Assembly (NCBI GenBank): GCA_020543525.1
Contig: JAHYIO010000005.1
Span: 1 to 64,000 of the forward strand
Origin: Coriolopsis trogii
Taxonomy: Eukaryota; Basidiomycota; Agaricomycetes; Polyporales; Polyporaceae
DNA length: 64,000 bases
Reading direction: 5' to 3'
Part shown: positions 22,021 to 63,261 of the stretch, one piece after another
How positions within the stretch are numbered: position 1 is the stretch's first letter
Layout: each line of letters begins with the position of its first letter
Made by a program: the position numbers and the translations under genes
The notes under the pieces: generated by a model
What the model was told of the DNA's origin: nothing
What the model saw: the letters and a program-made list of their open reading frames with translations, nothing else
The model's database searches: none

Positions 22021-25000
22021 TCAAGATGCAACGGACACAAGACCTATCTCCTCAACGAATTTGGCCTGATTGGAGTAAGGCACGTTCTTCGTGAGGGGGT
22101 CGGCCAATTGGTCCTCAGAAGCGACATAGTAGATCTCGACAGATCCCATCTCGACCTGTTCACGAATGAAGTGATAACGGATCTCTATGTGCTTGGTACG
22201 ACGGTCAATGACTGGATTGACAGACAAGAAGATCGAGCCTTGGTTGTCGAGACACAAAGGCGTCGGATCAGTCACGTCATCTCCGAGTTCATTGCCGAAG
22301 GTCCTCAGCCATGCCAACTGACGACAAGTGTCGGAGGCCGCTTTATATTCCGCCTCGGTCGAGGAGAGCGAAATGGTAGGCTGACGCCTCGATGCCCACG
22401 ATACAGCACCACCTGCCATCAAGAAGACAAAGCCAGAGGTTGAGTGCCGATCATCACGGTCTTCCGCCCAGTCCGAATCTGAGTACGAAATCAGACCGTC
22501 ATTAGACGCTCCCTTGTAGCGCAGCCGGTACGCCTTTGTTCCCTGAAGGTAACGCAGGACATACTTGGCATAGTTCATGTGCGCTTCAGAGGGATTGGCA
22601 TTGTACTTGGATAACCGTGTGACAGCGAAAGCAATATCAGGGCGCGTCCCGAGCATGGCGTACAAAAGACTGCCAATAAGACTCTGGTAGCGTTGCCTGA
22701 ATGAATCGGAAGCGGGCTGATCGGTTTTCACCAAAACAGCACCAGCAGGGAGAGGAGTACGCGACGGTTTACAGTCTGCCATCTGGAAACGCTCAAGGAC
22801 AGACTGGATATACTCTTCCTGGTCGATGTCGAGTGTTCGAGTAGAACGATCTCGAGTGATGCGAAGACCAAGGAAGCGCTTGACTGGTCCCAAGTCCGTC
22901 ATCTTGTACTGCTTAGAGAGAGAGCGCTTGACGTGCTTGATGTGACTAGACTGATCGCCGATGAGAAGTAGATCGTCGACATAGAGTACGACAATCGTTA
23001 CGTGTTCCCCCCTTGTCGCCGATATACGTAGATCCCGGCATCAGAATAGGTCCGTTGGAATCCCAAGTCAAGAAGCGACTGATGAATCTTCGCATTCCAT
23101 TGACGTGACGCCTGTTTAAGACCATAGATAGCCTTTTTGAGCAGACAGACGTGGTCTTCCTTCCCAGGAACGACCCAGCCTTCGGGCTGTTCCATGTAGA
23201 TCTCCTCTTCGAGATCGCCATTCAGAAACGCGGTCTTGACATCCATAGATTCGATGTCCCAGTCCTCAAGTGCAGCATGCGCAAGAAGATACCGGATAGA
23301 CTCGAACCGCGCAACCGGAGAGAACGTCTCGTGATAGTCCTCACCCCATACTTGAGTAAAACCGCGAGCAACAAGACGAGCTTTATACCGCCCATCATGT
23401 TTAATGTCATAAACCCAGCGGTTTGAGACGACGTGTCGACCTTTAGGACGAGGAACAAGTACCCAGGTCCTGTTCTCGATGAGCGAGTCATACTCCGACT
23501 TCTCAGCTTCGCGCCACTTAGGAGCATCAGGCGATCGCATGGCCTCCTTGTGGGATTGAGGAATACCAGCTTTCGACTGAGCAGCAGCGAGAAAAGCGAG
23601 GAAAGTCTCTGCCTCCCACTGATCTCCATCCGGATCTGTCCGAGCGTCAACATGAACCGGGTTCTCGTCACCATAGATGTTGTCCTGAGTCCTACTCGGG
23701 TGGGGAATGCCTGCTTTGTCACGACGAGGACGGTCACGAGCAATGCTAGGCTGATTATCTCCCACTGGTCTGTTACGACCACGACGGTGAGGAGGATGAG
23801 GAGCAGGAACAGGCGGTGGTGTTGGAGGACGATCAGGGGCATTAGCTGGAGCAGGTGCTTCAGGCGCATCATCGTCTACAGAGTGATCAAGCGGTGGTGG
23901 GACATCAAGCGGAATGGGAAGGGAAATGTCCAGGATGTCGTTGGGATCGACCGAGTCAGAGTCGTCGTTCGAGGACTCATCCGACTGGTCATTCACAAAC
24001 GGATTATCACTGGGGGCGACAGGTTGATTGCCAGGAAGTTTTCGTGCAGGGAAAGACTCTTCATCGAATGTCACATCGCGGGACACGACGATAGAGCGGG
24101 TGGCCGGATTCCAAAAACGATACCCCTTGGAACCCTGCTCATACCCCACGAAGATCATCTCGACTGCCTTCTTGTCGAGCTTCCCTTCGCGCTTCGCCTT
24201 CTGCACATGCACAAAGGCTTTGCACCCAAACACGCGGAAGTAGGAAACGTCCGGTATGGTACCATCCCACAATGTGATAGGGCATTGCCATTTGTGTCGT
24301 CGCATAGGTTGACGATTGTAGATATGGGGATGGGCAACGTCTCTGACACCCGTGGATGGCTTAGTCATCAGACGCCGGCACGAAATGTGGTCCTCTTCTA
24401 GCAAACGCCTTTTTGGCGCCCGATGTGTGTCCATAGGATGGACGGGTTTCTAGACATTCATGCACGAGATACGTGCAGAATTTCATGTGAATCATGCAGA
24501 AACAGCATGTCCAGCAAGGAATACTATGATATAAGGCTATCTGCAAGGAAAAGTAACATACACACTCCACAAATGCAAAGTGACCCCAAGCTATGACTTC
24601 GGAATGGCTGCAGACAGCGCAGAAACTGTCAACAGGGAGATAATTCTGCACAATTAAGTTTAAACTATCTATTGGCAATATACGCGACGGTCACATCATG
24701 TATGCAAGCCATGGAGCGGAAGGGGGCCAGTGCGTTAGTTGCGCGCGACCATGCGCGCGCGAAGTCGCGAACCACGTGACGGTATGATCACACACGTCGC
24801 GCCCCGCTCGCGCAGGGCGTCTGGTGAGTGTCCGAGCGTGCGCGAAGTTTTGCAGCATGTCCACTTGGAGTTTCACCATCAAAACACTTGCGCTCTCCGT
24901 TTGAGTACATAATCTAGTGCTCCGCCGTCGAAAATCCCGTTTAGTGGCTTTGTGAACACCAAATTCCAGGTGTAGCTTGGCGATTAGGGAACCTATTTCG

Positions 25001-27190
25001 ATATTTTTACGGCCGATCACTAGAACAATACCTTTCATTCCAAATGCACCATTGAATGAGGCACTCAGAGGTGTCAAGCAAGCAGCATTCTTCGCGCACG
25101 TTTGGTACCACCTTTCACGAGCGTCTCATGACATACCAAATATGAACAAACAAAACTGGTCTGGCGGGCGTTGCCCATCCCCAGTAGATATGAACGGCTG
25201 CATCGATGGCAAGTTGCCAGAAACCGTGACTAAGTCCAGCCTGATGTAACATACACAAAGCCTTCTCGGTGATGGTACGGTTCCAGCGTTCAGCACGTCC
25301 ATTCTGTTGAGGTGAACCCGCAACTGTCTTCTGGTGCTCGATGCCATGCGAACGAAGAAGCTCGCTGAACTCGCTAGACGTGTATTCCCCCCCTCGATCA
25401 GAGCGGACTTTCTTGATCTTTTTACCGGTCTGAGTCTCAGCCCATGCCTTATAGTCGAGGAATGCTTTGATAGCATCCGACTTGTGCTTAAGGTAATAGG
25501 CGCGAGCAAGACCAGAGTAATCGTCAATGAAACCGGCAAAATACTTCCATCCTCCGATAGCCTGAGTACGCATCGGTCCATCGAGATCTGTATGGATGAG
25601 CTCGAGAACTTCAGTCGCACGCTTCTCAGAAGGTGGAAAGGGGGCGCGAGTGGATTTGCCAAAGGCACATCCGTCACATGGCTCTTCATCCGCAGGATCA
25701 ACGGCATCAACTCCCTTGGTGTTCTTAGGAAGATGACGCAGCACGTCCTTGCCCGCATGACCAAAGCGACGATGCCAGGTCTTGAAGCGACGGACATTGA
25801 GGTGGACACGCTGACCATTACGGAGTTCGAGGAGCGTCCAGTACGTGTTGCTATTCGGGTTGTACCTCGCTTCAAGGATCTTTCGACCCATGATACGAAT
25901 CGTCGAACCATGTTTGACAGCACCATCAGGTAGCTTGTCAAAGATACACATGCGACCTTCGCCTTGGAACAAGGAATAACCATTGCGCTCGATGGAGCCC
26001 GTCGAGAAAAGACGACCTTCCACATGCGGGATGTAGTAGACGTTGTTGAAGGTGACAGGGACCTTCTGATTATCGATGTAAGTGAACCCTTCAACCGTTC
26101 CCGATCCAAGCGCATGGATAACACTACTTTCCCCTGACGCAGCCGTTCCGAAAGGAACAGTGGTCTCGAAAGGCTGGTAGGTGGAGAAGTCAGACATGTC
26201 GCCGGTGATATGTTGAGAGGCTCCTGAGTCCATAAGCCACATGGTCCACTTCGAGCTGTCCGAGGCCATAGCCTCATCATAGAAAGAAGCAGCGATGTTC
26301 GAGGGACCCGAAAGTACGTTTACAGCAGATACAGACTCAGAGACGACATGCGCATGACTATGAGAAGTAGTGTCCTTGTTCTTCCCCTTGTCCTTGTCCT
26401 TATCCCTCTCCTTCTCCTTCTTCTTGCCCTTGGGACGCTTGTCTGGATGCTTCTTATAGCAGTTGGACTCGTGGTGAGAACTACCGCCACAGAAGGAGCA
26501 AGGACCCTTAGGCTTCGGCTTGGTCTGGGAGACCTTGTTGGCGGACTGTCCGTTCTTGCGCAATGACTCCTCGGCCAAGGTCTTCGACTGGATGTCGTCG
26601 AGGGTGACCTTGTCGATGTCCGTAATAGCCATTAGCGCAGAAACCATGGACTGGTAGGACTCGGGGACCTTCGACAGCAACAGGAGAGCCTGCATGGTCT
26701 CGCTGAGCTTGACGCCGTTGCTATCGATGTCGCGAAGGCGGTTGATGATCTTCATCATCTGGTCCTGGAGAGGCTTCGAATCGTTCATGCGAGGCTCTGC
26801 AACGAGCGACTCGAACATGCCCCAGACGTGAGCACTGTTGGGCGTGCCAAACTTCGTCTTGATGGCGGCCCAGGTCTCAGCGGCTGTCATGGTACGAGGA
26901 GCAGCACCACCTTGACCCAGAACCTTCGCATCGAGGACGTAGTGGAAGTTCGGTGAGACCCGCATATACATCATGCCGCGAGCCTGCCCATTGAGCTTCT
27001 GCCATGCCTCTATGGCGACTAGTTCCGCCGCAGTGGCAGTGGTACCGGCAGGAGAGGGCTCAGTCTTGGTGCCTTCGACAATCTCCCAACAGCCCATGAA
27101 GATGAAGTACCCCTTGAGCTTTGCAGCCCAGTCATTGTACTGGTTCGCCGAAGAAAGGATAGGGATCGAGTCGATCTTGACGTCTCCCAT
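22021..27190 (-). pseudogene. copia gag-pol, disrupted by insertion and frameshift
   Basis: Polyprotein of the copia element. The likely start is the ATG at 27190 (MGDVKIDSIPI); an open frame continues upstream to 27541 without an ATG. Domains: gag; CX2CX4HX4C zinc knuckle (CSFCGGSSHHESNC, ~26500); aspartic protease DSGASQH (~26225); gag-pre-integrase HHCC region; integrase catalytic core with HTDLDGP, IDDYSG and GRAERWN; reverse transcriptase with KARLVARG and KTAFLNG, and YVDD just past the frameshift; RNase H with YSDSDWAED and SSTEAEY. Two breaks are seen: an 859 bp hAT-like insertion between HIY and NRQ of the integrase (24325-25183), and loss of one base in a six-C run at 23007-23012 just before the YVDD block. 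Otherwise the frame is intact, so inactivation is recent. Confidence 0.9.
24325..25183. mobile_element. 859 bp non-autonomous hAT-like element inside copia integrase
   Basis: The terminal inverted repeat TGGGGATGGGCAACG is perfect over 15 bp at both ends, and TGGGCAA-type ends are typical of hAT elements. Target duplication GTAGATA lies at 24318-24324 and 25184-25190; the next base is T at both ends, so it reads as 8 bp GTAGATAT if the first terminal base is excluded. No transposase frame was recognised inside. Confidence 0.88.
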
Positions 27191-28224
27191 GATTGAAAGC
27201 AGGTACTGAGAAGAGTGGAGATAATCCTCGTCGTCGAAGTCTAGAGTGAAGGATATAGGCGCAACAGATGGAAGCGCAGTGACGAGAGGAGGAGGAAGAG
27301 TTTCGATTGGAGAGAGATGCGGAGATGCGACGAGAGGGGTGTCGTATGGGGTGTTAGAGGCGAGAGGAAGCGCTACGACAAGTGGTGTGTCGTAGGGTGT
27401 ATCGGATGCGACTGGAAGAGCTGTGTTGACTCCAGCAAGAAACTCCTCGTCTGCTTGGTAGGGAGAGATAGGTTGCCAAGCGAACGATGTGGGGTCTTCC
27501 GGTAAAGCAACGTTGTTGTACCGATGAGGACAGGGGCTCACTGCACAATTGTACCAACCGTCGCTTTGAAGGTGGGCGTCAACTTGTTCGTCAGAGTCCC
27601 AAACGTGTGGAAGATCCTCGCAGGATTCCTCGTTGCCTGAGCTGTCAGAGGATGCTTCTGTCGAAGTATCAACGATGTCCTCGACTTCAGACTCAGAGGA
27701 ATGAGGAGATGCTGGAAGAGTCGGCTCCAGAACGGTGGTTCAAAGTATACGCGATGATTGACGTGCCACGTGCGAGGAAGGTGGACAGGGGCACCTTTTG
27801 AGGTGAACCAGAGAGCCAGTAAGCCGAAATTACCGACAATCCGGGTAGAAGTCGCCAACTGTGCCCAAGAAACGCTATAGTAACTACCGAGGCAAAAAGG
27901 TATCGTAAGGAGGGTCCGAACGGTTGTCCTCCGGTCCAAAGGTGCTAACCACCCCGGGTACAACAGCTGGCGGGCGCAAGTGCGTGGCCTGGCTGAGGGA
28001 TGCCTGAATCACCCAGGTGCCTCGAGAGCACAACAGGTGTTACAACGATAGTAGACTAGAGACTGACTACGAAGCGCTCAGGGCTGCGTCACGAGCGCAG
28101 AAATGTCCCCCTGGCAGCAGTGTCGGCGGGCACAGTCAAGAGAGTAGGAAAGTGGGATGCACGGGCAGAGAGTCGACGTACAAAGAGTTGCGCGCAGAGG
28201 TGTCGACAGGGAAGCAACCGATTA

Positions 28225-31353: not shown

Positions 31354-34080
31354 ATGGCCGCGATGACCGCAAAGTCGTTCTGGACGTCGCCCGACCCCGA
31401 CGACCCGCTCTCGAAGGCCTTCCAGCCGCCGATCGACGAGACCCCCGAGGAACGCGCCCTCCGGATCCGACAGTACGAGGACGCCGCACGCGTCTCAAAG
31501 GAGATCGACGACGAGCTCGCCCACGCAAAGCGGGCCTACGACAGACGCAAGAAGGCCGTCAAGATCCTCCTCCTCGGTCAGTCCCTCCCTCCCCGCCCTT
31601 CCACCTCACGTTCACCCCCACCAGGCCAGGCCGAGTCCGGCAAGAGTACCACTCTCAAGAGTCCGTCCCGACCGTCCCCTCTCTCTCCCTCAGCTCACGC
31701 TCTCCGCACAGACTTCCAGCTCGCCTTTTCTCCTCAGCACTTTCACAAGGAGCGTGCGGCCTGGAAGACCATCGTCCAGCTCAACCTCATCAGGTACGTC
31801 TCCCCACCTCTCTCTCCCGCATCCCCTACAGCCCCGCCCAGGAACGTCAAGCGTCTCCTCGACGTCCTCCAGGAAGAGTGGGACTCGTCCATGCAGACCA
31901 CCACCGTCTCCTCCATCGCAAAGGGCAAGGGCGTCGCTGGCCGCACCCCCTCCTCCCCCGGCGTCCGCTTCTCCACCTCTCCCCTCACGGACAACCACAA
32001 GCGCATACGAATGCGTCTCTCCGCCCTCATTCCCATCGAACAGGAGCTCACCAGGAAGCTCCACCCCGACGGTGCCCCTACGGACAAGGACGTCTGCGTC
32101 CGCGCAGGCTCCGGATGGAAAGGCATCCTCACCGCCCTCAGCGCCAACACCAGTACCGTCCTCGCAGAAATGCCCCCAAAGAACCCGCCTCTCGTCTCCG
32201 CCTTGAAAGGCGCCTCTCGCCCCAGTACCGCAGACGCCTCCAGAAACAAGGACAATCCCGCCGCCGTCCTCGCCGCCTGCAAAGACGACATCGTCACCCT
32301 CTGGGAGGACTCCATCGTCCGCTCCGTCCTCAAGAAGCACAACGTTCGACTGCAGGACATGCCCGGCTTGTGAGTCTCGCCCTCCTGTGCGCGTCCTACC
32401 AATTTTCACGCTCCGTAGCTTCCTCAACGACGCTGCCCGTGTCGCGGCCCTCAATTACGAGCCCACAGACGGTGAGTCTTCCCCTCGCCCTCCCCACTCG
32501 CACACTCACTCTCCCAGACGACATTGTACGAGCACGAGTTCGCACGCTCGGCGTCGAAGAACATCACTTCACCATGGAGAGCGGTACGTATGAACCCGAA
32601 CCGCATCCATTCGGATCTTATCGTCTTCTCCTGTGCAGGTGCGCTTCCCGGAACAGAGTGGTACATCTACGACGTCGGCGGCAGTCGAAGCTCTGTCCGT
32701 CTTCTCTTCCCTCTCTGTTTCGCTCTCCGTTCCTGATCCCATCTCCATTCCCTCCCTGATCCACAGCGCCAACACTGGATACCGTACTTTGACGACGTCC
32801 AAGCCATCATCTTCCTCGCCCCGCTCGTCTTCAACCAAACGCTCGAGGAAGACCCGAAAGTCAACCGCCTGGTGCGTGCATCGCCCCCATGTCATCGACA
32901 TGCGCTCCGCGCTCCACATTTCCCTCAGCGCGCCCCTCTGATCCTGATCTCGTTCCGTAGGAGGACTCGATCATGCTCTGGCGGGAGGTGTGCAAGAACC
33001 CGCTGCTCGCAAAGACGACGCTCATCCTCTTCTTGAACAAGGTCAGTCTCCGCTCCTCTGCGAACGCATCGTCACCCGGACTGGGCGCACGCCGGACGTG
33101 GATCGTCCTTCCCTTCCAAGTCCTGCAACGCTCGCCCGCCTTCCATGCCTATCAGCACATCAGACCCCCAAATGCCCCGTGCACCGCATACCGCGCTAGC
33201 TACTACTCACGCTTCGGGCGCATGTTCTCGTAAAGCTAGTCAGGCAGGTTGCCATGGCTGTGCGACGTCGCTGTCGTGTTTGGCAGCTCTGCCTGATGGA
33301 CGCGCGCGCGCGACATGATAACCCCCGTGTCTTTGCTCTCCAGCGTCTGTCGTCGAACCTTGCTGAGGCTGCGGTGCGCGCAGCACGGGTGAACATACTG
33401 ATTTGTCCCCATCTTCCCTCCTGGGTTTTCCTGGTGTGGTCCCTTCCGGATGCTGTGTTTTCTCCGCCGTGGATGAGCGTGCGTGCTGACTACCATCCGC
33501 AGATGGACCTCTTGCAGGCCACGCTAGCCGCAAACATCCAGGTCGTCAAGTACGTCCCGAGCTACGCCGGCCAGCCAAACGAAATCGGGCACGTCACGAA
33601 ATGTACGTCCGTCCGCTCGCCTGTTCTCGCAGACTGTGGACGCTGAGCATGGCACAGACTTTAGGGATAAATTCAGGGGATACCACGTACGTCATGATCC
33701 ACAGGGACCTCTCCTCGATCGTCTTTGTGGGTGCGAGCTGACGAGTGGACTCGTTTCGGCTGGCAGAAACGACTGTCGCCAAAGGCGCGCCCGTTCTATT
33801 GGTACGAGACCTCTGTCATCGTGCGTCTCTCTTCCTTCTTGCGTGCATCCGACATAGCCATGGCTAACTCTGCACGTGGACAGGACACGCGCGCGACGGC
33901 CGCGATCCTTGTTGGTGGTGAGTGCACGCACGGTGCCTACGTCGAGTGCCGTCTACTGATCGTGCATCTGCAACCGACCGCGCCTTAACACGAACGGTGC
34001 TTCCTACACTCAACTGTCCGCGATCTGCAGTACGCGAGGGCATCTTGCGCGCCCATCTTCAGAGCGTCAGCGTCATCTGA
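31354..34080 (+). CDS. Non-canonical G-protein alpha subunit (Gα, 498 aa)
   Basis: Heterotrimeric G-protein alpha subunit, a membrane-associated GTPase relaying receptor signals. Fourteen exons sum to 1497 nt in frame (31354-31576, 31625-31660, 31712-31793, 31842-32369, 32419-32471, 32518-32583, 32639-32694, 32767-32871, 32961-33041, 33503-33602, 33658-33686, 33767-33820, 33884-33917, 34031-34080). Motifs: P-loop GQAESGKST; switch I RARVRTLG keeps the catalytic Arg; switch II DVGGSRSSRQHW; NKMD base-recognition loop. The TCAT motif is degenerate (TSVIDT). The helical domain carries a large insertion in the 528 nt exon, making it about 150 residues longer than a typical Gα. The N-terminus MAAMTAK lacks the MG start needed for myristoylation. 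The 461 bp intron at 33042-33502 is far longer than the others. Expanded atypical Gα families are known in Agaricomycetes. Confidence 0.9.
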
Positions 34081-50528: not shown

Positions 50529-52214
50529 ATGGGAGCCTGCATTTTGCGCGAAGCAAACGTGCCAGGCGAGAACGAACAGTCCCCCGGCGGACCGAACGCG
50601 ACAAACCCAATCGACAGCTTGCAGCAGGTGAGAACATCTCGACTCGGCAGCTCACCGCTGATATTCACTCCAGATCCCTTGTCTGAAGGATCCCAAGGTC
50701 TGTCAGCCTATACTATCTCCATAGTCTCAGATTTGAAGCCCTGAAAAGAAAATGAAACTGCAAAAAGTTTTTCCGATAAATCCTCCTCCTCGGTTCCAGC
50801 AACTCCGGCAAAACCACCGTCCTCAAACAGCTCTCCGCCTGTTGGGACGGCGGGACATGTGTCCTCCCAGGCACAGACTCCGAGCTCCGCGAGCTGGTCT
50901 TCTTCAGCCTCATCAAGGGCATCCGCGCCGCACTAACCATCATAGAAGACCTCGACCTGGACACGTTCGACCTACGGGACACGCTCGCTCACCAGGTAGA
51001 GGACGAGCCCGCGACGCGGGCGTTTCGCGACAGAGAGCCATTCCCGGCGTTGTATCACCTTCCTATCAAACGTCTCTGCGAAGCGCTGCTCGCCCATCGG
51101 GTGCACTACCGCGCACAGTCTGGGTTCCCTGATAAGTGAGTGTGCCTGTGTACGCGAACAGCCTTCTGCCTATACGCGCAGTCTGACAACCCCCTCTGAC
51201 TACAGCCTCTTGTACTTCTATCGCCACCTCGACCGTCTGTTCTCGGGGGTGTACGTGCCCACAGCCGGAGACATCGCGCACGCATACGTGATGACTACGG
51301 GGATGACCAAGTCGTTCGTCCCGCTCGACTCCGGTGATCGGAGGCGGGGTGACTTTTGTCTTGTTGACGTCGGCGGCAGGAAGAGCGAGCGACGAAAGTG
51401 GATGCACGCATTCCAGAACGTCAGCGCGATCGTCTTCGTAGTCAACCTCAGAGGCTACAGTCGCTCTCTCGCCGAAGATCCAAGCGTAGTGCGTCGTTTC
51501 CCTCATTCTAAATGAAGATGCTCTGATTGTGTGGTGACGTTCGTTCGCCTAGAATGAGATGTCAGATGCGATGGATCTCTGGGAGGCCATCGCCCACTCG
51601 AGGTTGTTCGAGGACACACCGCTCGTGCGTCGCGTCTTTCCCCCTCCCTATCGCAAGTCAAGCAATACAGCGTTCGCGCGCTGAGCTGCATGTATTCAGA
51701 TACTGCTACTAAACAAGAACGACCTCTTCGGGGACGCCATCCAACACGTCGACATCCGCGACCACTTTCCAGTGCGTTCCCGTTCCCGCATTATCCACCA
51801 GGAGCCTTGCATACTCACGTGAGATATCACAGGACTACGATGGAGACCCTCGGGATGCAGAAGACGCACGACGATACTTTCTGAGACGCTTCTTTGACCT
51901 CATGCCGAAATACGTGCAGTCGCCGTCCGAAGACCACACGGAAGACGGACGAAGAGGGAGGACTGTGTACTGCCAGTACGTCATCCCATCCCTTCTCTCT
52001 CTCTCCTTTCCCTCCTCGGTTTGCATGATGCGTGGTGTCTGACGCACGGCCCGCCTGACCAAGTTTCACCACTGCTACTGACGCTGCCACGTTGGAGCCC
52101 GTACTCGCGTCCATCGAAAGTGCGTATCGCCTCTCCAATCTGTACAGTCCCTCTCGTTTTCTCACGTGTTCAGCAGGGTCAGTCCTCATGGAGCGTGTGT
52201 CGCAGCCGAGCTGA
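50529..52214 (+). CDS. Second non-canonical G-protein alpha subunit, broken before the P-loop
   Basis: The start is the ATG at 50529 with an MGACIL N-terminus (Gly2, a myristoylation context; Cys4 is a possible palmitate site). Exons: 50529-50627, P-loop exon to 51135, 51206-51488, 51553-51624, 51700-51771, 51833-51975, 52064-52119, 52177-52214. Motifs: LLLGSSNSGKTT (P-loop), DVGGRKSERRKW (switch II), LLNKND, CHFTTATDA (TCAT variant). In switch I the catalytic Arg position is Tyr (AYVMTTG), so slow or no GTP hydrolysis is predicted. Immediately before the P-loop the frame reads through stops (TAA near 50784), and no splice site cures this; one extra A in the run there would explain it. Either a recent pseudogene or an assembly indel. 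It is only distantly similar to the 31.4 kb Gα. Confidence 0.75.
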
Positions 52215-54624: not shown

Positions 54625-57184
54625 ATGAAATCCGCTCAACTCCTCTCTGTTCTCCTCCTTAGTGTTCTCCTATATGTCAGCCAGGTGAGCACATATGTGC
54701 AAGCGGAGCACGTTGAGGTTCTCAATGTGTGCGTTTAGACTCGAGCCCTCTATACGTCAACGTACGTCATCGTTCAAGATGATCCCGAGCATCAGGAGCA
54801 CAACCATGTCTGGGTCATCGGCGAAGACGAAGAACGTAGGCTGAGCGAGCTGCTCGAGACCGACGTCAGCGAGCTCGACTTCATGGGATTCTGGATGAAT
54901 CGTCCTCCGCAAGTCTGCGGCCATTGCGGGAAGCGCACCGAAGTCATTGACTGGTGAGCACAAACCATCGATCACGGACCGTGTGCTCGGCCTGGACATG
55001 CGCTCAAAAACCCTCATTGACACGGCCCACAGGGTATACACTGCTCTGAACAGAGGCGTCCACTCGAAAGAGTGGATCGTAAACGCGATCCGCGAAGCCC
55101 GCATCTCGCGAAAGGGCTCGCACGATGTCTACTGCTCACGTTGCGGCCATCTGACCCGCTTCCAGGACCATTCGGGCGCAGAGGGTCTCGCTCCTCACAT
55201 CAGTGAAGCTCCGGTACATATCGCTATTCCATTCTTCCGTGCGATATACACCCAACGCCATCGCTGACGCTCCCGTACGTCACATTGACCATCTTAGCGC
55301 TTCAACCGGGCGACAAAGTCGTTCATCAAGCGCGACGCAGTGAGTACAGTGTTTACACCTCACTGCGAATGAGCCTCATTGTACACGATGTTCGCATCAT
55401 GCAGGAGCTTTCAGAGCCCGTGCCCGCGCGTGAACCAGAGTTCGAGAGTGAGGACGCACCCCTGCAAGGCCAGTGGGCCAACTCTGGATGGCTCAAACGC
55501 AAGTCCTCTGCGTCGCACGCTGTCAAGGCATGTCCTTCGTGGCCGCGCGCTCATCACCTCACGTTCATCCCTGATCATATGACACCCAAAACTAGGATGC
55601 TATCGCAGACATGGAGGCGCGTGAGCCCGCCATGGACTCGACCGACGGCGCCCTCAAGGGCGAGTGGGCTAACTCTGGATGGCTGAAGAGGAAGTCTACC
55701 GCGTCTGATGGCATGAAGGTGCGTCGTCCTCTGGAGCCTCAAAGTCGCTCACCTTTGATTCACAACCACCATTCACACGCATGAACTGCGCACTATTCAG
55801 AGAGAAATCGCGGGCATCGAAGCACGCGAGCCCGGACCGGACACAGACAGTGAAGCCGGCGAGCTCCAAGGACAGTGGGCTAACGCCGGCTGGCTCAAGC
55901 GCAGGTCTAGCGCTTCTGAGGGTTTGCAGGTGCGTTCCATATGGCATGCTCCCGCCACAGCGTTGCTCACCTCACGATGGGGTCATCTCCTCTCCTCTAT
56001 TTCTCTTATCAGCGAGAAATTCTCGAACGCGAAGAGCGCGAAGCTGTACCAGTGGCGGACACCGCCGATGGCGAGTTGAACGGGCAGTGGGCGAACTCTG
56101 GCTGGTTGAAGCGGAAGTCCACGGCATCAGAGTCCGTAAAGGTGCATCGTCTCCGCTGTTCGTCACCCGACTCTGATATCCTCACAATTCGTCTCTTGAA
56201 GAGAGAAGTCGCTGATCTGGAAGCACGCGAAGCCGTACCCGGCTCAGACAAGGACGACGGACCGCTTCAAGGTCAATGGGCCAACGCGGGCTGGCTCAAA
56301 CGCAAATCGAGCGCGTCGGAGTCGTTCAAGGTACCGCGTCCTGGGCATGACCTGTCTACGTGCGCTCAGTACCGACCCGTGTTCCTCTTCTCTAGCGATC
56401 TGTCGCGGAACAGGAAGCGCGTGAGGCGGCACCCGAGATGGATACGACTGACGGCGAACTCCAAGGACAATGGGCCAATGCTGGCTGGCTCAAGCGCAAA
56501 TCCACTGCCTCAGACATTCTGAAGGTATTGCTCTTTCCCTCCTGTCATGCCCAGGGCGCTGAACGCAACGGCTGCCTCGGGCCATGTGCCTCTTTCATAG
56601 CGATCCATCGCGGACTTGGAAGCGCGTGAAGCGGCCCCCGAGACGGACAATACCGACGGGGAGCTCCAGGGGCAGTGGGCCAACTCCGGCTGGCTCAAGC
56701 GCAAGTCCGCTACTTCGGGTTCATTCAAGGTCCGCAACCGCACTCTGTTCTGGAGACGTGCAGTCCATTGCTGACTTGAAATTTTTGTTGTGGTACATCG
56801 AACTCAGCGAGTTATCGTGGAGTTAGAAATGCGCGAACGTGCCCCGGGATCGGACAGCGCTGACGCCCTGCTGGAAGGGCAGTGGAACAATGACCATTGG
56901 GTCCTTCGCAAATCCGCCGCTCCGGACGCCGTGAAGGTATGGCTCACTGTCTTCGGTGCCGTCCGTCGCAGCCACATTTGTTTTCTCACTGCTGCCTTGC
57001 ATGCTGTTAGGGGGCTGTCGCGGACATTGAAGCCCGCGAGCCCAACGACGACGAGGAACTTCGCGGCGAGTGGAACAATGTCGCATGGCTGCTGAGGACG
57101 TCGGCTGCTCCTGAGTCCGCCAAGGTTCGTCCTCACACCCATGTCTTAGACACAGTGATTCGTCAGCACTCTGGTAGTAAATGA
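54625..57184 (+). CDS. Secreted precursor with nine exon-encoded, KEX2-type repeats (563 aa)
   Basis: Thirteen exons sum to 1692 nt in frame: 54625-54684, 54739-54953, 55033-55213, 55298-55339, 55405-55527, 55596-55718, 55801-55929, 56013-56141, 56202-56330, 56396-56524, 56601-56729, 56808-56936, 57011-57184. Exon 1 encodes a hydrophobic signal peptide (MKSAQLLSVLLLSVLLY). Exons 2-3 encode a domain with two CxxC pairs (CGHC, CSRC). Exons 5-13 each encode one repeat: acidic ADLEAREA spacer, then GELQGQWANAGWLKRKSTAS. Six repeat exons are exactly 129 nt and all junctions are phase 0. Lys-Arg occurs inside the first seven repeats (WLKR) and is re-created at many exon junctions (K then R), so Kex2 in the Golgi should release a ~33-residue peptide and a ~10-residue linker per unit. 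The last two repeats are degenerate (VLRKS, LLRTS). The intron at 55528 starts with GC. Function unknown; U. maydis Rep1 and fungal RiPP precursors are the nearest known architectures. Confidence 0.85.
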
Positions 57185-58743
57185 ATCTACTGACGCACCG
57201 GAACGTTCTGGGTATCGTCTAGAGGGTCGTAGAAGCCGACTTGGATCAGCTTGATTGATGAGAATTGACGGGCGCGGCACGGTTCCTCTCGCAGCCATGG
57301 CGAAGGTTCTGTCAAGAGTGAAGACGGACGTATAGCTTGTACGACTAGAGTTTGTGTGAGCACGCGAGTCCGTCGACTCAATACCATTGCTTCTTGAGGG
57401 AACGTACATATTCGATCTCGTGTCTCGAGTCGTACAGTCATGCGGAAATAAAGAGACATCTGTTGGGGACTTGAGGTTGCCGAACTCAGTACAACACGAC
57501 AACTCAGTGCATGCCATCGCAGAACGCACCCATAACTGTATATGAGAAGCGGTACCTGGATGAGCTTAAGGAAGCATACCTGTCAGTGTAACAATACGCC
57601 ATCAGTCCGGTTGTGGGAGAGTGCCGAGAGGTCTTGTACAACCGCGGTGAAGCTATTGCGAGTGCGGCGGCCCTGTGACCGCTCGGCATCGAGTCGGATG
57701 AATATGTGTACATCTGCAGAGTGCATTCCTGACCGACAGCAAGAGACGTCATCTGTAAAACATGGTAACTTCCAGAGAACTCACCAGAGTCGAGGGTCAT
57801 TGGAGATGACGTCGCGTGCGCGTCATGCCAGGTTCTTCGAAGATGTACGTGCGTTGGGACTGTCTCAAGGGCAGTATCAGGTAGTCGTAGGACCATTGGA
57901 GGAGTACTTCTCGTTGGGACGAGCGTTCCATCACTCAATTGAGACGACTCTGCTTGGAGGTCGTAGCCGGCTGCCAACGCCAATCACCTGTTGCCAGTGA
58001 GCGCCCCACTGTCCGCAGTGGGTCAATCAAACTTCGGCCAAGTAAGATGGATGTTCGCTCCCGAGACATCGCGTGAGCACCATCCATGTACGACGCTCAC
58101 CTTTGATGAATTGGTGTACTCGCTGAGCTTGTTGGTCCGACTAGAAGCTCCGGCTCGGGTGGCGAGGGAAGCCATATGAGAACGTGTATATTGAACTGTA
58201 GCGGCTGCGAACGCAACGTGCATGATTAGTTTGAACGTTTGCGGTCAATTCTATGGAGTTGTTCGTGTTGCCTCGCTAGTACGAGGTACGATGTTCTATA
58301 TTGAGGGAGACGGTAAGGGCTTACCTTAGGAAGCGCTGTGAGACTGTTCCGCACCAGATGTTTTCCTTCATGATACATGTGACGCCATTGGAAATACCAC
58401 GTTGGTCTTCATTGTATTGAGGACTTCCAGTATTCGGGTCGGCTCTCGGCAGTGGCGTTTGGAATATTTCGGCAGGTCAACATAGACTGACGGATGCGCA
58501 AGGGGTTGCGTTTACTTCGACAAGTCGGTGACGAGCGCGGGTGAGCGAAGGAATACTCGCAGAGGATCTGATTTGAAGTGCAGCAGTTGGCAACGCGGCT
58601 CGTACTAGAGCCCCTGAGAGCGACAGTTGGAGACTAGGAGCAGCATATTCATCGCTGCTCAGGGCCGCCGAAAGCGAGGCGAGGCGGACCCACAAATGTC
58701 TATCAGTCATACATCCTTCTGCATGCGTGCGTGACTTTTCTGT
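57185..58743. other. No firm gene
   Basis: Overlapping frames on both strands at 57504-58000. The minus strand shows short exon-like stretches (for example SRLRPPSRVVSIE near 57970) that soon hit stops. Possibly a decayed gene, but not supportable. Confidence 0.35.
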
Positions 58744-62686: not shown

Positions 62687-63261
62687 TCAAACGTTCAAGA
62701 ATCCTGACCACTTCTGAATTAACGGCAGTATCACCTTTCTCCAAACTTCAAGCGGTCCATCTGTGCCCCTCGCGTGGAATAAAAACTGTTCACGGTGCCT
62801 TCGTGTGCCTGAGAGGTCGTGTACATGTTAGTAGGGAGTGTATGGTCTGGATAGGATCGCTCACAATCGGGGCAAGTGTATCTCAGATTCGTCGCGAATT
62901 TGGCCAGATTGAGGTGGACCAGTCGCTCCAATCGATGAGTGTTGGATGTTGGTCCACCAGACGACGGCCAGAACCCTAAGAGAACTGGTCGCGTCGACGG
63001 GCAGCTCCGCTTCCATTCGCGCATGCGCCTTTTGACGTCATTAGTCCGGCCGACCTTGATGATATGAGAATGCGACCGGGACGTCTCTGTTGTACATGAA
63101 GTCAGACAGCAACCCCTCCTCCGAAGCGCAATAGTCCTTACTTGGGATGGCGTATGAGTAAATGTATCCATCCGCCTCCGCAAGAGACAACGGCATGGAC
63201 TTGGTTCGCCTCAATAGGTGTTGTACGCTCTTCTTGCACCGAGGACGCGCGATACTAGTGC
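62687..63261 (-). CDS. T5orf172 (DUF1766) GIY-YIG-like protein, 5' exons unresolved
   Basis: Three exons join in frame: 63261-63142, 63086-62865 and 62808-62687. Family hallmarks: GYIYSYAIP, then IIKVGRTNDVKRRMREW, LERLVHLNLAKF, and a split CPDC...RRHREQFLF (Cys-x-x-Cys plus His-Arg-Glu), ending WSGFLNV with the stop at 62687. The T5orf172 domain has a GIY-YIG nuclease-like fold and is widespread in basidiomycetes; activity is unproven. The second intron (62809-62864) contains a perfect CTAAC branch site. The 5' end is open at 63261. An ATG-started frame at 63772-63551 (MDSITRLPCEQE) may supply the N-terminus, but the join is not visible. Confidence 0.82.

Follow-up and report, generated by a model that had tools for sequence, protein, structure and literature searches.

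The question raised by this locus is what is made from a gene whose protein repeats each occupy an exon of their own: a single secreted protein or a set of peptides cut out of it and, in the latter case, where the cuts would be placed. The window, i.e. the whole stretch of DNA that was analysed, comprises 64 kb and carries the precursor gene on its forward strand.

Exon chain of the precursor gene

Splicing at AG/GT borders resolves the gene into 14 predicted exons (54625-57184, +) with an open frame of 549 aa, the codons of which are free of stops. The original prediction had proposed nine repeats behind a signal peptide-like start and a two-CxxC domain, and this arrangement is reproduced in the spliced frame. 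Exon 1 (54625-54684, +) contains the start codon and a signal-peptide-like stretch (MKSAQLLSVLLLSVLLYVSQ), whose hydrophobic core reaches a 9-residue hydropathy peak of 2.87 and represents a putative secretion signal. The first part of the two-CxxC domain is located on exon 2 (54739-54953, +), including the first CxxC (CGHC), both cysteines of which are invariant in the related proteins P0001-P0003 described below. According to the splice model and the alignment, exon 3 (55033-55213, +) encodes the remainder of the domain with the second CxxC (CSRC) and a G[AT]EG motif. Exon 4 (55298-55339, +) reads RFNRATKSFIKR followed by DA and holds the end of the domain together with the first Kex2-type site; the KR is likewise placed in P0002 and P0003 and absent in P0001.

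The nine repeats correspond to exons 5-13, all on the plus strand. Repeat exons 1 and 2 (55405-55527 and 55596-55718) are 123 nt long, repeat exons 3 to 8 (55801-55929, 56013-56141, 56202-56330, 56396-56524, 56601-56729 and 56808-56936) measure 129 nt each and repeat exon 9 (57011-57124) has 114 nt, resulting in repeats of 41, 41, 43 (six times) and 38 aa. Phase 0 is kept throughout with one repeat per exon, and the earlier count of six exons of exactly 129 nt is right. Repeat exons 1-8 are given by the splice model as well as by a repeat finder run on the DNA, which detects the array as 8 copies of 79 nt; repeat exon 9 is given by the splice model and by a search of the genome. The core is degenerate in repeat exons 8 (WNNDHWVLR) and 9 (WNNVAWLLR). 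A single GC donor occurs in the gene, after exon 5, such that repeat exon 1 is followed by a GC-AG intron. Intron retention would disrupt the frame for 11 of the 13 introns, by length (n=8) or by an in-frame stop (n=6), three of them being included in both numbers; the 60-nt intron at 56142-56201 and the 42-nt intron at 57125-57166 would be frame-neutral if retained. The weakest piece of the gene model is the possible terminal exon derived from splicing (57167-57184, +; HSGSK-stop), which we regard as uncertain.

Conservation and age of the repeats

Repeats 1-7 share a common unit that consists of a spacer, a single Arg, E[AP](xP) dipeptides, an acidic stretch, the sequence G[QE]WAN[AS]GWL, a KR and a K/R-S tail. 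This unit is degenerate in repeats 8 and 9. Ten alignment columns are identical in all nine repeats (R9, E10, P13, L22, G24, W26, N28, W31, R34 and S36), whereby the invariance of P13 hinges on the placement of a two-residue gap. When all six frames of the window (64 kb) are scanned, the pattern W-x4-W-[LV]-x-R is matched 10 times: once in each of the nine repeats and once on the minus strand, where the match reads through a stop. A genome search found the repeat array nowhere else.

Within whole repeats 1-7 the uncorrected synonymous difference (pS) amounts to 0.69 vs a non-synonymous difference (pN) of 0.25. For the core block ELQGQWANSGWLKRKS the respective uncorrected values are 0.74 and 0.10 in repeats 1-7, and 0.75 and 0.20 when all nine repeats are considered. 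Introns between the repeats show no clear mutual likeness (best z of 2.5 in 28 pairs). Judged by pS the repeats are old, and selection on the protein strongly constrains the core block that ends in G[QE]WAN[AS]GWLKRKS in repeats 1-7. Recent tandem copying or an assembly artefact as the source of the array is ruled out by the high synonymous difference, the protein-level constraint and introns without a clear likeness. The high synonymous difference further implies that no homogenising gene conversion acts among the repeats.

Age and constraint, together with a spacer and a tail kept in 9/9 repeats, would also fit a structural or wall protein that is secreted and stays uncleaved, its nine repeats carrying tryptophan. 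We consider such a protein very unlikely. The original prediction had named the placement of the repeats in a known structural domain as a finding that would speak against a peptide precursor; the searches returned neither a Pfam family over cut-off nor a significant PDB relative for them. Of 7998 candidates scored, none was related to the full precursor by sequence at E up to 0.001.

Dibasic sites and a conserved single Arg

The dibasic sites are a second point against the uncleaved protein, as the repeat region contains 13 KR/RR pairs vs a shuffle mean of 3.75 (13 pairs were reached in 0 of 2000 shuffles). The earlier reading as a Kex2-type repeat precursor, predicted to be secreted, is supported. 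As predicted, WLKR is present in repeats 1-7 (7/9), and repeats 8 and 9 read WVLR and WLLR. Lys-Arg pairs also re-form across exon borders in the manner claimed: in the present exon order, 5 of the 8 borders that join two repeat exons create a KR site. The general splice consensus AAG/GT favours K at exon ends, and the junction lysines are thus weak and non-independent evidence for protease sites.

The basic site with the highest conservation, which the original prediction had overlooked, consists of a single Arg with Glu behind it in 9/9 repeats. This Arg is directly followed in 8/9 repeats by X-Ala/X-Pro dipeptides, known from alpha-pheromone precursors as the STE13 signature, the runs being EP, EP, EPGP, EAVPVA, EAVP, EAAP, EAAP, none and EP for repeats 1-9. 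Repeat 8 has ER after the single Arg instead of E[AP]. The mean run length is 1.56, and among the start offsets compared the runner-up by mean reaches 0.89 and the runner-up by count 7/9. Compared with repeats 3-8, repeats 1 and 2 lack two residues, which equals one dipeptide in size. The dibasic sites inside the repeats lack such dipeptides after them. P4 of the single Arg reads V, M, I, R, L, Q, L, L and I in repeats 1-9 (L/I/V/M in 7/9) and P2 is Ala in 7/9 repeats; these counts, like those of the A/P residues, are not independent draws since the repeats are homologous.

Kex2 is described to prefer Leu or another aliphatic residue at P4 and to tolerate other residues at P2, a preference summarised as the LxxR motif, whereby the five P2 alternatives rated best in the respective passage do not include Ala (PMC8528282). 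In yeast, Kex2 cleaves after KR, and STE13 strips EA or DA pairs (PMC6339444). The single Arg with its dipeptides resembles an LxxR Kex2 motif combined with STE13 trimming, which suggests a peptide shorter than one delimited by dibasic sites. The original prediction of a ~33-residue peptide per unit is therefore unsupported as stated, as the single Arg (9/9) and the X-A/X-P pairs (8/9) favour the shorter product.

The main rival is nevertheless cleavage by Kex2 at dibasic sites only, giving a short linker and peptides of ~32-33 residues that reach from the junction KR to WLKR and might be surface-active in the manner of the Ustilago Rep1 products. It can draw on the KR created at 5/8 junctions, on the WLKR of 7/9 repeats and on Rep1, for which peptides of 37 aa are reported (PMC6339444). 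Yet the junction KR is missing at 3/8 junctions whereas the single Arg is kept in every repeat, the junction Lys is explicable by the splice consensus and the X-A/X-P dipeptides are located at the single Arg. We thus rate cleavage at dibasic sites only as possible, if unlikely. As a counterpoint to the shorter product, the stretch before the single Arg could be a helical spacer and no more.

Proposed processing

Taken together, the secreted protein is probably cleaved into up to nine similar Trp-containing peptides, one per exon, as judged from the conserved sites. In our view the gene product is rather likely a KEX2-processed repeat protein (KEP) with alpha-pheromone-type processing. In the Golgi, Kex2 would cleave at three kinds of site, namely behind the CxxC domain, behind WLKR and behind the conserved single Arg. 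A carboxypeptidase of the Kex1 type would trim the C-terminal K/R, and a STE13-type dipeptidyl aminopeptidase would take off the X-Ala/X-Pro pairs. Genes with a Kex2-type P domain and for DPPIV-type and S10-type peptidases are present in the genome. From repeats 1-7, linear peptides of 17-19 residues would arise, seven in all and each with G[QE]WAN[AS]GWL at its C-terminus. The predicted span extends from the end of the X-A/X-P run to GWL and comprises 19 residues in six cases and 17 in one, ETDNTDGELQGQWANSGWL being an example. Two more divergent peptides would come from repeats 8 and 9, if these are cleaved at all. The CxxC domain would act as a pro-domain in folding or sorting.

The two-CxxC domain belongs to a family

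A search with residues 1-166 retrieved P0001 and P0002, and a repeat of the search with a longer length range added P0003. These relatives stem from Daedaleopsis nitida (P0001, P0003) and Trametes sanguinea (P0002), with E-values of 1e-34 to 2e-36. Aligned to the window protein they show 42-48% identity, and their precomputed Pfam label is PF26731. With such relatives, the host fungus is likely a polypore or closely related to one. The four CxxC cysteines and HDVYCSRCGHLT are invariant across all four proteins, which also have the G[AT]EG motif in common. A KR just after the domain is found in 3/4 members, namely FIKR in the window protein, IYKR in P0002 and ISKR in P0003, and none in P0001; this again counts against an uncleaved protein. 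The domain thus represents a conserved family and is not incidental to the precursor. The presence of a two-CxxC domain had been noted before, whereas the family in Daedaleopsis and Trametes and the KR after the domain had been overlooked. Structure prediction of the domain (3 sequences) was of middling quality, and no solved structure matched.

About 40 residues past its domain KR, P0003 reads DASYWHSSNWAV-RR-EAEPASYWHSSN, and then the protein ends. Its core (ASYWHSSNWAV-RR-EAEP-ASYWHSSN) has the W-x4-W spacing of the window repeats, and RR-EAEP is a canonical STE13 signature with X-A/X-P directly after a dibasic site. P0003 holds one full copy and one cut-off copy, the annotated protein ending inside the second unit. 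Repeats are absent from the annotated models of P0001 and P0002. The annotated models of all three proteins may be cut short.

Elsewhere in the genome the domain is represented by a broken copy at C5:107.8 kb and by two exon pieces at C6:447.5 kb. The former is a relic (C5:107.8-108.1 kb; L029 3323-3590) in which a broken exon 3 is followed within about 20 bases by sequence matching window positions 58391-58475. It has no repeat exons, and the joined sequence lies 3 kb downstream in the window.

Comparison with KEPs and alpha-pheromone precursors

As the original prediction stated, KEX2-processed repeat proteins are known; as KEPs they form a described class (Le Marquer 2019, PMC6339444; Umemura 2020, PMC7329392; Vogt 2022, PMC9769878), surveyed in 250 fungal secretomes (PMC6339444) and in 1461 strains (PMC7329392). 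Like KEPs, the window precursor is predicted to be secreted and has near-identical repeats with KR/RR sites and X-A/X-P dipeptides; Trp lies within the core or closes it, and there is no UstYa partner nearby. KEPs have at least three near-identical repeats, and nine are present here, seven with the full core; KR/RR between the repeats, which is likewise typical of the class, is represented by the 13 pairs and the WLKR of 7/9 repeats. Two to three nearby Trp are described as typical of the most widespread KEP types (PMC7329392), and a clear STE13 signature has been described for KEPs of basidiomycetes (PMC6339444). When mushroom KEPs were expressed in Pichia, XA/XP pairs were removed, several products apparently resulted from single-Arg cleavage and several of the detected peptides ended in Trp (PMC9769878).

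In contrast to KEPs, the window precursor has a conserved two-CxxC pro-domain, one exon per repeat and dipeptides that follow a single Arg and not KR/RR. Neither "exon" nor "intron" is used in the main text of PMC6339444 and PMC7329392, whose supplementary tables may list the family. In the text of PMC9769878 considered here, intron occurs once, for intron-less KEP sequences amplified from cDNA, which implies that some KEP genes contain introns. In the literature searched, including the main texts of the KEP papers, no description of a one-exon-per-repeat layout was found. Within the same scope and in the sequence searches, the core sequence was not encountered either, in agreement with the original prediction. 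Hence the new parts are the pro-domain, the unit of single Arg plus dipeptides and the exon layout, whereas the KEP class itself is known.

A precursor of cyclised, UstYa-modified peptides (dikaritin-type RiPP) would require a partner for which the genome offers candidates, as 10 UstYa-family matches are listed. However, none of the 10 lies in the window, the nearest one listed on the same contig is ~479 kb away and all nine repeats are devoid of Tyr, which renders this precursor type extremely unlikely. The finding is in agreement with the earlier statement that no UstY-like oxidase is encoded next door.

Ascomycete alpha-pheromone precursors share with the proposed KEP a putative signal peptide, a pro-region, a Kex2-type site, E-A/X-P dipeptides and a repeated linear peptide. 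Unlike alpha-factor, the window repeats have no dipeptides after the dibasic sites; the X-A/X-P pairs of 8/9 repeats would lie directly behind a Kex2 site only if the single Arg is one. The core is unrelated to alpha-pheromone by any search run. The 4 Pfam families with a listed match at E up to 1 include neither MF_alpha nor MF_alpha_N. STE2 gave one match in the genome with 14.8 bits vs a cut-off of 27.2, in an exon-by-exon search that can miss split genes. Basidiomycota are stated not to mate via alpha-type peptides (PMC6339444).

Possible role and exon modularity

Our best guess from the class is that the peptides would serve as a non-mating extracellular signal or in biotic interaction. 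For six C. cinerea kep knock-outs no visible phenotype is reported, and the synthetic peptides tested were not antibacterial (PMC9769878); function can therefore not be inferred from the KEP class. In the passages of the KEP literature considered, function and receptor of mushroom KEPs with pheromone-type processing are not established.

A more far-reaching reading, which we hold to be speculative and rather improbable, would be an exon-modular peptide hormone gene. Its CxxC pro-domain would mark a family of polypore signals that resemble alpha-factor, act outside mating and have W-x4-W cores that change fast, and these signals may be coupled to the divergent G-alpha gene ~3 kb upstream. If the gene is exon-modular, skipping, duplication or loss of repeat exons would alter the number and mix of peptides without loss of frame, since each phase-0 repeat exon comes with its own cleavage-and-peptide cassette. 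The one-exon-one-peptide layout is a clean case in which to study whether splicing or exon duplication serves fungi to adjust the dose or the mix of peptides. Definite peptide ends follow from the conserved sites, and mass spectra can be searched for them; the conserved pro-domain offers a handle on a family whose cores may diverge too fast for sequence search.

Genomic neighbourhood

A divergent G-protein alpha subunit gene is located ~3 kb upstream of the precursor (50756-51494, +; Pfam E 1.3e-24). Its matches cover 50756-50980 and 51171-51494, the P-loop reads GSSNSGKT and the best solved relative is G(i) alpha-1 (E 1.5e-16). A second G-alpha-like gene of the window is found at 32650-33044 (+), and about 17 G-alpha-like places were counted by eye from 51 matches in the genome. 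That the upstream G-alpha gene lies close to the precursor was recognised in hindsight and may be coincidental. Further away, a Copia-type LTR retrotransposon (gag, integrase, reverse transcriptase) is spread across three of the scanned open frames at 22021-27739 (-). A frame with a T5orf172/MUG113 domain, which we take to be GIY-YIG-like, lies at 62731-63210 (-).
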